From Bacteroidota bacterium (GTDB lineage: Bacteria > Bacteroidota > Bacteroidia > 2-12-FULL-35-15), in assembly GCA_947476185.1 (NCBI GenBank), contig CANJPX010000004.1, positions 1 to 64,000 on the forward strand: a DNA stretch of 64,000 nucleotides, given 5' to 3'. A model generated the notes under the pieces. The model was not told the origin of the DNA. It saw nothing but the letters and a program-made list of their open reading frames with translations, and searched no databases. Position numbers and translations under genes: made by a program. Numbering within the stretch: the stretch's first letter is position 1; each line of letters begins with the position of its first letter. Positions 6,487 to 28,534 of this stretch are shown here, piece after piece.

Positions 6487-6597
6487 AGTTAATTTAGTTT
6501 AAGAAGCATAAAATTAAGTCTTTTGGCATAACATTTGAAATTATTGATTGGATTTTATATATTTATGAAACTTTTAAAATAATATAAACGACTCATT

Positions 6598-7044
6598 ATG
6601 AAAAAAATATTTACTGTAGTAGCATTTTTAATAGGTTTTTTTGTTGTTGGCAGTGCCCAAACGGCAAAAAAGGCAGAAGAAGAGAACAATTGTTATACAA
6701 AATGGGCTCAGAAGTTCCAGGATAGAGGTGCCGAAGATGTTGCGGATGGAACCTATAGTGATGTTATTATTTCCATTAGAAGCGGTGGAGATGCCGAATG
6801 TTATAATGGTAAATGTGATGTAAAAGAAGGGAAAGTTATTGCTATGTATATTAAAATGGAAGACGGCGCATTTGAGCAATTAAAGAGAAAATCGCGTTAC
6901 GAGAATGTTCCATTGGTTATTACAAACGGGATTTCTAGTCCGCTTTTAACAATGGAAAGTGAATTGATCAATGTGCTTTTTGTGAAAAAAATAAAACCTA
7001 AAAAAGCAGGATTTGTAAAAGCTGCTGATCCTTCAGATGATTAA
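6598..7044 (+). CDS. Secreted hypothetical protein
   Basis: A 148-residue protein with a signal peptide (about 1-20, ending VGSAQ). The mature part has a few cysteines (NNCYTKW, AECYNGKC) and ends in an acidic tail. No T9SS sorting domain or lipobox is visible, so it is probably periplasmic. It is a stand-alone gene between gmhA (divergent) and a strong terminator. I do not recognise the family; lineage-restricted proteins of this type are common in Bacteroidota. Confidence 0.7.
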   Translation: MKKIFTVVAFLIGFFVVGSAQTAKKAEEENNCYTKWAQKFQDRGAEDVADGTYSDVIISIRSGGDAECYNGKCDVKEGKVIAMYIKMEDGAFEQLKRKSRYENVPLVITNGISSPLLTMESELINVLFVKKIKPKKAGFVKAADPSDD

Positions 7045-24144: not shown

Positions 24145-25401
24145 ATGTTCTACTACTTATTCGATTTTTTAGATAAACGATTCGACTTTCCGGGAGCAGG
24201 AGTGTTTCACTATATTTCTTTCCGTGCCGCAATGGCATTGATTGGTTCACTGTTGATCTCTTTAGTTTTCGGTAAACGTATCATCGATATTCTCCAAAGA
24301 AAACAAGTTGGTGAAACAGTCCGTGATCTTGGATTGCAAGGTCAGTTAGAGAAAAAAGGCACCCCTACAATGGGTGGATTAATTATTCTGTCAGCAATAG
24401 TGATTCCTACTTTATTATTTGCAAAACTTCATAATGTTTACATCATATTAATGTTATTGTCGACGGTGTGGCTTGGTGCAATTGGGTTTTTAGATGATTA
24501 TATAAAAGTGTTCAAAAAAAACAAGGCGGGATTGGCAGGTAAATTTAAAGTGTTAGGTCAGGTTGGATTAGGGCTTATTGTTGGAATTGCTTTGTATTGT
24601 AATGATGAAGTGGTTGTAAAAGAAAAAATGCAACCCGGAGTAAATGTGGAGGTAGTAAATGGCACCGAGCAAATTTCACAACTACCGAAATATTCTTCTG
24701 TGGAAACAAAGTCGATGAAAACGACTATTCCTTTTGTGAAAAATAATGAATTTGATTATTCATCTCTGCTTTCATTTTTAGGAAATGGCTATAGGAAATG
24801 GGCCTGGTTGATTTTTATTCCTGTCGTTATCATCATAGTGACAGCAGTTTCCAATGGTGCAAATATTACTGATGGTATCGATGGCTTGGCAACCGGAACT
24901 TCAGCGATCATTGGAGTTGTTTTAGGGATCCTCGCATACGTTTCTGGTAATACTGTTTTCGCTGATTATCTGAACATAATGTATATACCAAACTCAGGAG
25001 AGTTGGTAATTTTTATTGCAGCATTTGTTGGTGCTTGTGTTGGATTTTTATGGTATAACTCTTTCCCTGCTCAAGTATTTATGGGTGATACAGGCAGTTT
25101 GGCATTAGGAGGGATTATAGCCGTATTTGCGATCGCCATTCGTAAGGAACTTCTTATTCCAATTCTATGTGGTGTTTTCTTGGTTGAAAATGTATCGGTA
25201 ATGATTCAAGTTGCCTACTTCAAACGAATGAAAAAGAAATTCGGAATTGAATATGCCCGTGAGCATCGATTTTTGAAAATGGCTCCATTGCATCATCATT
25301 ATCAGAAATTGGGAATGCATGAGTCCAAAATAGTATCGCGCTTTTGGATCATCGGAATCATGTTAGCTGTATTAACGATTGTAACATTAAAGTTAAGATA
25401 G
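24145..25401 (+). CDS. mraY: Phospho-MurNAc-pentapeptide translocase MraY
   Basis: MraY transfers phospho-MurNAc-pentapeptide to undecaprenyl phosphate, making lipid I in the inner membrane. It is a multi-helix protein with catalytic DDY (Asp117, Asp118), [12 protein letters not shown] (240-251) and the HHHYQKLG loop near the C-terminus. At 418 residues it is longer than the roughly 360 of E. coli, because a soluble insert of about 50 residues (152-205) sits between two helices. The murD ATG follows the stop codon with no gap. Confidence 0.95.
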
Positions 25402-26742
25402 ATGAAACGCCTTGTAATACTTGGTGGAGGAGAGAGTGGTGTCGGTACTGCAGTACTTGCACAAAAAAAGGGTTATAAAGTTTTTCTTTCTGATAAAGGA
25501 AAAATAAAAGAAAAATATAAAGTAGTTCTTTCAAAATATGGAATCGACTGGGAAGAAGAAAAACATTCTGAAGAGTTGATATTAATTGCGGATGAAGTTG
25601 TGAAAAGTCCGGGAATACCTGATAATTCAAATCTTCTAATGGCTTTGAATCAAAAAGGAATACCCGTGATTTCAGAAATTGAATTTGCCGGTAGATATAC
25701 AAATGCAAAGAAGATCTGTATTACCGGAAGCAATGGGAAAACAACTACCACTCTGCTTATTTATCACATGTTGCAAAAGGCTGGGTTGAATGTTGGTTTG
25801 GGGGGTAATGTTGGAAAAAGTTTTGCGATGCAGGTAGCAGAAAATGATTTTGAGTATTACGTGCTGGAGTTGAGCAGCTTTCAGTTGGATGGCATGTTTG
25901 AATTTAAAGCTGACATCGCAATTCTGCTAAATATTACTCCAGATCATTTGGATAGATATGATTATAAACTTGAAAATTATGCAGATTCAAAATTCAAAAT
26001 AATACAAAATCAAACAGAATTAGATGCATTTATTTATTGTGTCGATGATGAAGTAACAATGAGAACGATCGGAACTAAAAATAATAATGCAAAACAATAT
26101 CCTTTTTCAATAAAACAACAACTTGAGATAGGAGCATACTTAAACGAAAACAATCAAATAGTAATAAATACAAATAACACTAATCCCTTATTTATGACAA
26201 TACAAGAACTAGCATTACAAGGAAAACACAATATCTACAACTCTATGGCTGCAGGTGTTACCGGTAAATTAGTAGGTATCAGAAAAGAAACTATTCGCGA
26301 AAGTCTTTCTGATTTCCATAACATCGATCACCGCTTAGAGGTGATTGGAAATGTTCACGGGATTGAATTTATCAACGACTCAAAGGCTACCAATGTAAAT
26401 TCCACTTGGTATGCATTGGAAAGTATGAACAATCCTGTAATTCTGATCCTAGGGGGTGTTGATAAAGGAAATGATTATTCTATGCTTAATGATTTAGTAA
26501 AATCTAAGGTAAAAGCGATTATTTGTTTGGGAACCGACAATAAAAAAATTATTAAGGCATTTGATGGAATGGTCGAGATCATTCTTGAAGCGAAATCTGC
26601 AAAAGAAGCTGTTGCGCAGTCTTACAAACTTGGAAAAAAAGGCGATACTGTTTTGTTGTCTCCTGCATGTGCAAGTTTTGATATGTTCGAAAATTATGAA
26701 GACAGAGGAACTCAGTTCAAGCAAGCTGTACGTGCATTATAA
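25402..26742 (+). CDS. murD: UDP-MurNAc-L-Ala:D-Glu ligase MurD
   Basis: MurD adds D-glutamate to UDP-MurNAc-L-Ala. The full 446-residue length is present: a Rossmann-like UDP-binding domain (1-95), an ATPase domain with GSNGKTT at 109-115 and LNITPDHLDRY, and a C-terminal domain from about 305 with NDSKATN (325-331) and SPACASFDMF (420-429). All key residues look intact. The start abuts the mraY stop. The gene that follows repeats its C-terminal domain. Confidence 0.95.
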   Translation: MKRLVILGGGESGVGTAVLAQKKGYKVFLSDKGKIKEKYKVVLSKYGIDWEEEKHSEELILIADEVVKSPGIPDNSNLLMALNQKGIPVISEIEFAGRYTNAKKICITGSNGKTTTTLLIYHMLQKAGLNVGLGGNVGKSFAMQVAENDFEYYVLELSSFQLDGMFEFKADIAILLNITPDHLDRYDYKLENYADSKFKIIQNQTELDAFIYCVDDEVTMRTIGTKNNNAKQYPFSIKQQLEIGAYLNENNQIVINTNNTNPLFMTIQELALQGKHNIYNSMAAGVTGKLVGIRKETIRESLSDFHNIDHRLEVIGNVHGIEFINDSKATNVNSTWYALESMNNPVILILGGVDKGNDYSMLNDLVKSKVKAIICLGTDNKKIIKAFDGMVEIILEAKSAKEAVAQSYKLGKKGDTVLLSPACASFDMFENYEDRGTQFKQAVRAL

Positions 26743-26778: not shown

Positions 26779-27285
26779 ATGACAGAGAATAATAAAATAA
26801 GAAATTATCACGATAAACTTAATCAGAGAGTTTTGTCTCGCAATCGTGTTCGGTCCTCAGAAGACGATCATCAATTAGAATTTGTAGATGAGATCAATGG
26901 CATTGCCTTCATCAACGATTCAAGATCGATCCGTCTTACGGCCACCCGAAACGCACTGGAGTCCATAGAAACTTCGGTAGTGCTTATTGTTGGTGGCGAT
27001 GATAAGGATAACGACTATTCTGTTCTTGCACAACAAGTGAAGGAAAAAGTTGTCGCAATTGTTTATTTGGGAAGTTATTCTGATAAGATCTTGAAATATT
27101 ATTCATCTCATAAAATGCTTTTCGCGAAAGCATCAAGTATAAAGGAAGCTGTTCATATTTCATCTGCCTATGCAATGGCCGGTGATGTGGTATTGTTTTC
27201 GCCGGCTTGTCCAAGTTTTCATGCTTTTGATAATTATAAAAGCAGAGGAAATGAATTTAAGGAATTAGTGAGAAATCTTTTTTAA
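26779..27285 (+). CDS. Standalone MurD C-terminal-domain paralogue
   Basis: A 168-residue intact frame with its own ATG between murD and ftsW. Residues 30-168 align without gaps to MurD 309-446; by hand I count about 66 identities in 138 positions. The UDP-binding and ATPase domains are absent, and residues 1-29 are unlike MurD (basic, hydrophilic). The substrate-binding NDSKATN of MurD has become NDSRSIR, while SPACPSF, GGDDK and RGNEF are kept. It cannot be a complete Mur ligase. It might bind MurD, nucleotide or glutamate and act as a regulator or scaffold; that is speculation. The open frame and conserved core argue against a decaying fragment. Confidence 0.85.
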   Translation: MTENNKIRNYHDKLNQRVLSRNRVRSSEDDHQLEFVDEINGIAFINDSRSIRLTATRNALESIETSVVLIVGGDDKDNDYSVLAQQVKEKVVAIVYLGSYSDKILKYYSSHKMLFAKASSIKEAVHISSAYAMAGDVVLFSPACPSFHAFDNYKSRGNEFKELVRNLF

Positions 27286-27385: not shown

Positions 27386-28534
27386 ATGAATTTATTTAAA
27401 TATATAAAAGGGGATAAGGTAATTTGGACGGTAGTTTTGCTGCTATCGCTGATATCTATTTTAGTCGTTTATAGCTCTGTTGTGGCATTAGCATATCGTT
27501 ATAAAAATGGCGATACTGCTTCGTATTTGATCAAGCATATTTTTATTGTTGGTTCAGGAATATTTTTGATGTATTTAATTCATAAGGTGAAGTATTCCTA
27601 TTTTTCCAGGATTTCTCAGATTGCAGTTATACTGGCAGCCCCATTGTTGCTATATACTTTATTAAAAGGTGTAAGTGCAGGAGAAGCTTCAAGATGGTTG
27701 GCTATTCCCGGAACGGCCTTAACATTTCAAACATCCGATTTTGCCAAACTTGCATTGATTGCTTATGTCGCTCGCATGTTGTCAATCAAACAAGATGTAA
27801 TTAAGGATTTTAAACAAGGTTTTTTACCAGTTATCATTCCTGTAGTCATAATTTGTGCACTGATTTTCCCTGCAAACTTTTCTACTGCTGCATTACTGTT
27901 TTTAACTTGTCTGGTGCTAATGTTTGTTGGCCGCATGAATGCAAAACATTTATGGCTTTTAGTAGCATCCGGAATCGTCTTCGTTGCTTTACTCATAACA
28001 ATCATTTGGAATTTCCCAAATGCAATACCTCGCGGACAAACCTGGAAAGCGCGTATAGAAAATTTTAATAAGGGAGATAGCCAAAGTAATTTTCAGGCAG
28101 AGCAGGCTAAAATAGCTATTGCACGAGGTAGAGTGCCTCAAGGACCTGGGAATAGTGTGTCGCGTAATTTTTTACCGCAAGCTTCTTCCGATTTTATTTT
28201 TGCAATTCTTATTGAAGAATGGGGTTTGATCACCGCGATTTTTATTGTTTTCTTATATGTTGTTTTGCTTTTCAGAGGTGTACGAATTGCAAATAATAGT
28301 GAACGGACTTTCGGAAGTTTGCTCGCTATCGGATTAACCTTTTCATTGGTCTTTCAAGCAATGATCAATATGGCAGTGGCTGTAAATTTATTTCCTGTTA
28401 CCGGACAACCTTTACCATTGATCAGTATGGGAGGGACATCCATTTGGTTTACAAGTATCTCACTTGGGATTATTTTAAGTGTAAGCAGAGAAACAGAAGT
28501 TTCGCAGGAAGGAGGTACACTTGCAACCGCTTAG
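27386..28534 (+). CDS. ftsW: Septal peptidoglycan glycosyltransferase FtsW
   Basis: FtsW is the SEDS-family polymerase that makes septal glycan strands with FtsI. The 382-residue protein has about ten membrane helices, the ASRWLAIPG and QTSDFAKLALIAYVARML segments, and the C-terminal NLFPVTGQPLPLISMGGTS signature. The last 14 bp overlap murG, and the murG ribosome-binding site lies inside its final codons. Confidence 0.94.
   Translation: MNLFKYIKGDKVIWTVVLLLSLISILVVYSSVVALAYRYKNGDTASYLIKHIFIVGSGIFLMYLIHKVKYSYFSRISQIAVILAAPLLLYTLLKGVSAGEASRWLAIPGTALTFQTSDFAKLALIAYVARMLSIKQDVIKDFKQGFLPVIIPVVIICALIFPANFSTAALLFLTCLVLMFVGRMNAKHLWLLVASGIVFVALLITIIWNFPNAIPRGQTWKARIENFNKGDSQSNFQAEQAKIAIARGRVPQGPGNSVSRNFLPQASSDFIFAILIEEWGLITAIFIVFLYVVLLFRGVRIANNSERTFGSLLAIGLTFSLVFQAMINMAVAVNLFPVTGQPLPLISMGGTSIWFTSISLGIILSVSRETEVSQEGGTLATA
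28509..28516 (+). promoter_or_regulatory. Strong Shine-Dalgarno for murG inside ftsW
   Basis: AAGGAGGT lies 4 bp before the TTG at 28521. It is a full anti-SD match, rare in this window, where most genes have none, and it decides the murG start. Confidence 0.75.

Follow-up and report, generated by a model that had tools for sequence, protein, structure and literature searches.

The 64,000-nucleotide stretch analyzed here, which we call the window, carries between murD and ftsW an intact gene for a protein that consists of little more than the third domain of MurD. This gene, referred to below as the orphan, is under purifying selection as a protein, and it most likely predates its genus. We give about an even chance to the reading that it is an old non-catalytic MurD pseudo-domain which would assist the cytoplasmic branch of lipid II precursor synthesis by binding protein. 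More broadly, the orphan is probably a previously undescribed helper or regulator of wall synthesis.

The orphan gene (26779..27285, + strand) begins with ATG, ends with TAA and spans 168 codons without an internal stop. It lies 36 bases downstream of murD and 100 bases upstream of ftsW (27386..28534, +), and its adjacency to ftsW is kept across families. The surrounding dcw cluster is complete and reads ftsI-murE-mraY-murD-orphan-ftsW-murG-murC-ftsQ-ftsA, with mraY (24145..25401, +) upstream of murD. The neighboring murD (25402..26742, +) encodes a complete 446-residue enzyme scoring 402 bits against NCBIfam TIGR01087, with domain 3 (residues 309-446) encoded at 26326-26739 (+). By BLASTP, orphan residues 30-167 and MurD 309-446 form a gapless alignment in which 66 of 138 positions are identical (48%, E 4e-40), exactly the figure that the first-pass annotation had estimated by hand. 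Its account of an intact reading frame was likewise borne out, as were the absence of the first two Mur ligase domains and the change of the MurD motif NDSKATN to NDSRSIR, found at orphan residues 46-52 (26914..26934, +). Pfam Mur_ligase_C (PF02875) is the sole domain above its cut-off (31.1 bits, gathering cut-off 28.4), and neither the Pfam search nor the sequence itself revealed Mur_ligase_M, the N-terminal domain or a P-loop (GxxGKT/S) in the 168 residues. Against the MurD equivalog TIGR01087 the orphan reaches 140.6 bits, under the curated cut-off of 211.95. A search of the source genome returned, besides MurD itself, no further copy.

Residues 1-20 of the protein (26779..26838, +) form a Lys/Arg-rich tail without a MurD counterpart. 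This tail is mildly basic, differs in length and sequence between families, and is predicted by AlphaFold2 to be disordered (pLDDT <50 at residues 1-6 and 8-19), with a low-confidence helix at residues 6-16. Residues 21-30 (RNRVRSSEDD; 26839..26868, +) are a remnant of the last domain-2 helix and hinge of MurD (RKETIRESLSDFHNID), aligning to RKETIRESLSD with five residues missing. Thus, the basic N-terminus that had been described as unique is so for residues 1-20, but residues ~21-30 are an inherited hinge segment. Many orphans retain a piece of this helix, reading LLELRxxIIRES in families f4 and f46 and slightly different in f10 and f42; these shared remnants point to a similar break point. 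Residues 30-168 (26866..27282, +) are predicted to retain the MurD domain-3 fold. The AlphaFold2 model, built with 46 relatives, has a pLDDT of 83.3 and a pTM of 0.80, with domain 3 mostly above pLDDT 80, and a Foldseek search with it ranks MurD crystal structures first (E to 3e-13, rmsd ~2 A, TMq 0.68-0.78).

Our sample of relatives comprised 98 genomes, 35 others of the genus and 63 from other families of its class, the Bacteroidia. MurD-C-only genes were present in 14 of the 36 genus genomes including the window's own (13 of the 35 others) and were not found in the other 22. Additionally, 19 of the 63 other-family genomes, representing 15 families, carried such copies; in one of them, G084, the sole copy is not in the cluster. 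A 296-genome sample of the class contributed two more families, f55 and f74, which gives at least 17 other families and 18 in all. Inspected dcw copies sit between murD and ftsW, with the exception of G076 (L045 6008-6562; L054 5174-6517), where the cluster is split, the orphan lies upstream of ftsW and murD ends a block on another contig. The search for MurD-C-only genes in related dcw clusters, which the first-pass annotation had proposed, found them in 18 families and nearly always at this position. Public records with the same arrangement include Sediminibacterium, Flavobacteriales, Salibacteraceae and Crocinitomicaceae MAGs, and most records of close relatives are MAGs of uncultured Bacteroidota. 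A 118-genome phylum sample included ~89 genomes belonging to other classes, and no orphan was detected in these; a short match in G334 proved to be a MurD split at contig ends. Second matches in G015, G026, G029, G040, G079, G099, G118, G123 and G127 were not orphans between murD and ftsW.

Presence within the genus is patchy. Six inspected genomes run directly from murD to ftsW, and the sister genome G018 holds only a 34-codon C-terminal orphan stump (L071) between murD, ending at 6499, and ftsW, starting at 6637, indicating that the gene can be lost. A shorter stretch resembling this stump occurs in G009 (L070). Two tandem MurD-C-only genes lie between murD and ftsW in G313 (L170 2564-3076 and 3111-3641), and likewise on the public contig L093. 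A second, more diverged MurD-C-only paralog occurs in families f4 and f46 (L033 5883-6422, L049 6002-6544, L048 5995-6633), away from the dcw cluster and next to an aldehyde-dehydrogenase-like gene; it keeps the IRxDIIRES helix but has lost the D-Glu loop, and an f42 gene in a different setting (L046 5971-6588) is possibly related to it. The ftsW gene of G031 (L055 4919-5969) is split into two overlapping frames by mutation or assembly error.

To measure constraint, dN/dS was calculated by NG86, with genus pairs at dS <2 taken as usable. The closest genus pair gave 0.083 for the orphan, the seven usable pairs 0.05-0.12 and one divergent pair 0.27. The same pairs gave 0.04-0.07 for murD and mostly 0.07-0.11 for murC, and the orphan falls within the range of its neighbors ftsI, murC and ftsQ. 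Values in other families were 0.02-0.21, and in most families the orphan evolves faster than MurD. Family f12 shows the reverse, its orphan being more constrained (0.02-0.03) than its MurD (0.12-0.19). The f12 MurD (L036, L051, L152, L153, L154) has lost the near-invariant hinge-helix residues Arg294, Arg299 and Asp304, and the slower-evolving f12 orphan retains most of the hinge helix that this MurD altered. Perhaps the f12 orphan is a domain replacement or had a separate origin.

The age of the orphan was examined with trees of domain 3. On a careful 61-row tree, the orphans of f1, f29, f37, f41 and f44 form one clade (support 100/99), and a recent duplication inside the genus was rejected, since forcing the MurD and orphans of the genus together gave an AU p of 0.001. 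An earlier tree of 136 rows, built quickly, left a local genus clade of MurD and orphans standing (p 0.316); where the two tests differ, we give more weight to the careful tree. Its clade and AU rejection together suggest that the window orphan is likely older than the genus. A single origin of all orphans is not proven. On the quick 136-row tree one branch parts all orphans from all MurD, with a support of only 41, and the 61-row tree places the origin of orphans at 1 to 3 changes, with one change in 34% of bootstrap trees. The f12 orphan may be separate in origin (AU p 0.687). Shared changes at MurD-invariant sites favor common ancestry for most orphans: Leu419 is replaced by Phe in 42 of 57 and Ala338 by Ser in 32 of 57, and each change occurs in 0 of 75 MurD.

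We then compared reaction residues, using E. coli MurD numbering transferred by HMMER alignment, across 57 dcw orphans (14 of them in the window's genus) and 75 MurD. The window orphan carries Arg302 to Gln, Lys319 to Arg and Thr321 to Ile substitutions and keeps Asp317, Lys348 and Ser415. Several MurD-invariant residues are often missing from orphans: the Arg302 equivalent is present in 26/57 (0/14 in the genus), that of Thr321 in 36/57 (0/14) and that of Lys348 in 11/57 (2/14). Lys319 is matched in 32/57 and Ser415 in 49/57, with Ser415 lost in 5 of the 14 genus members. MurD reads NDSKAT in 75/75, and NDSRSI is common to the window orphan and those of f41 and f44. The equivalents of His301, Glu304, Asn316 and Gly426 are each present in 57/57 orphans and that of Arg425 in 56/57. 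Thr321, Lys348, Ser415 and Phe422 count among the D-Glu-side contacts of the E. coli enzyme (PMC3527612). Arg302 has been described as the handle of MurD domain rotation, with His301 and Glu304 in the hinge loop (PMC4816537). SPAC-SF and RGNEF segments had been listed as retained; SPAC and R-G are indeed kept family-wide, but the rest of the D-Glu loop varies even within the genus (PACPS, PACAH, PACSN, PACAQ, PACES).

Because domains 1 and 2 are absent and reaction residues of domain 3 are changed, the orphan is not a ligase and, judged from the known mechanism, cannot perform the MurD reaction. It belongs with the Mur ligase C-terminal domains, passing the gathering cut-off and matching their fold in prediction, and falls outside the MurD ligases by score, by its missing domains and by its domain-3 reaction residues. 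With its catalytic equipment gone and selection retained, the orphan fits the description of a pseudoenzyme, one born inside the dcw cluster. The earlier suggestion of selection for a new role survives as a retained non-catalytic role, supported by low dN/dS, recurrence in 18 families at one and the same position, and an intact predicted fold stripped of reaction residues.

We propose that the gene descends from an old partial duplication of murD in which the end of the last domain-2 helix and the whole of domain 3 survived and the UDP-MurNAc and ATP domains disappeared. Its product would work by binding protein, as an accessory to the MurD-to-lipid II step; roles in MurD regulation or in scaffolding of lipid II enzymes are both plausible. 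Adjacency and the retained hinge-side surface make MurD the first candidate partner. Within this explanation, docking on MurD through the hinge-facing surface shared with MurD domain 3 is the likeliest single mechanism, at somewhat below an even chance. A docked orphan would bias the open-closed rotation of MurD or hold MurD near MurG and FtsW. In another bacterium, MurD reportedly binds MurG (PMC6420597), which makes a membrane-near precursor complex credible. Since the gene has been lost from sister species, the orphan would be an optional modulator. A bolder and, in our estimate, unlikely version is that these class-restricted pseudo-domains are a dedicated regulator of the D-glutamate-adding step, placing a decoy third domain in trans on the MurD hinge. 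If true, decoy-domain docking would be a previously undescribed control point of peptidoglycan precursor synthesis.

Further analysis did not single out a partner. An AlphaFold2 model of a read-through MurD-orphan chain with 21 paired sequences reached a pTM of 0.58 with a low-confidence linker and, judged without a contact map, gave no sign of confident docking. A mirror-tree search yielded no clear partner (partial r of -0.34 with MurD, 0.03 with FtsW and 0.05 with MurG). Invariance of the hinge residues may have a purely structural cause within domain 3. A read-through fusion extending MurD was rejected: from genome to genome, the reading frame of the orphan relative to murD is random and the gap between the two genes varies.

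The G076 orphan, which stays with ftsW apart from murD, argues against docking on MurD and agrees with a scaffold that tethers FtsW, MurG or other membrane-near proteins without any effect on MurD catalysis, its disordered tail contacting the membrane or a partner. We consider such a scaffold rather unlikely. The mildly basic, predicted disordered tail is consistent with it, and in plants a relative of the Mur ligases, MurE/PAP11, is known to serve structurally (PMC12681378). However, the split cluster was seen only once, tail length and sequence change from family to family, and the orphan covaries with neither FtsW nor MurG (partial r 0.03 and 0.05). It seems to us improbable that the domain is a ligand sensor, which would signal to a partner on binding D-glutamate, the dipeptide precursor or a nucleotide. 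Orphans of f12, f10, f4 and f46 do keep NDSKAT and the Ser415 equivalent, f12 also Lys348 and Arg302, and Thr321, Lys348 and Ser415 belong to the D-Glu-side contacts of E. coli MurD (PMC3527612). The window's genus, however, has lost Thr321 in 14/14, Lys348 in 12/14 and Ser415 in 5/14, so the same ligand site cannot be the shared function.

Family f12 also bears on whether MurD or another Mur ligase receives a domain 3 in trans from the orphan, with catalysis restored or changed. There the hinge helix and the substrate residues persist in an orphan that is more tightly constrained than MurD, and it is MurD that has lost Arg294, Arg299 and Asp304 of this helix. Even so, we regard this substitution as very improbable, since MurD is full length with an intact domain 3 in the genomes aligned and f1-type orphans lack Arg302, Thr321 and mostly Lys348. 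Lastly, a functionless murD duplicate in decay might be suspected from the 22 of 35 other genus genomes in which the gene was not found, the stump in G018 and the faster evolution relative to MurD in most families. The first-pass annotation had held that absence or frameshifting in close relatives, or relaxed selection, would point this way. The gene is indeed missing from most of the genus and a stump in one genome, but the copies that exist are intact and under strong constraint. Neither relaxed selection nor broken frames were found: dN/dS is far below 1 in every usable pair, frames are intact over 18 families and the apparent age exceeds that of the genus. Decay is thus contradicted at the window locus, and we assign it hardly any probability.

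The non-catalytic, protein-binding accessory that we favor can be set beside several known systems. MurD is essential and a long-studied antibacterial target, and its catalysis depends on domain-3 rotation. The orphan shares its fold and sequence family (48% identity to the neighbor, best PDB matches all MurD) but lacks domains 1 and 2, does not keep the Arg302, Thr321 and Lys348 equivalents as a group, and scores 141 bits against a MurD model cut-off of 212. Short "MurD" annotations in genomes with an orphan may be this protein. We found no description of a stand-alone MurD C-domain protein in the open literature, subscription papers lying mostly outside the search. A conserved lone domain-3 protein beside murD and ftsW would be a handle on the coupling of precursor supply to division. 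MurT, of the MurT-GatD amidotransferase, is likewise a Mur ligase relative working with a partner protein and a weak fold match (6h5e, TMq 0.58); unlike the orphan, it retains the ATP domain and catalyzes amidation. Low in the Foldseek list stands 8ras_Q (E 3e-5), which we take to be a plastid RNA polymerase chain. Plant MurE/PAP11, a peripheral subunit of plastid RNA polymerase (PMC12681378), resembles the proposed orphan role in that a relative of the Mur ligases serves structurally, but it is MurE-derived, belongs to a transcription complex and is kin only at the superfamily level. The MurG oligomer scaffold has been proposed to gather precursor enzymes near the membrane, as the orphan may do, although MurG is an active glycosyltransferase of another fold.
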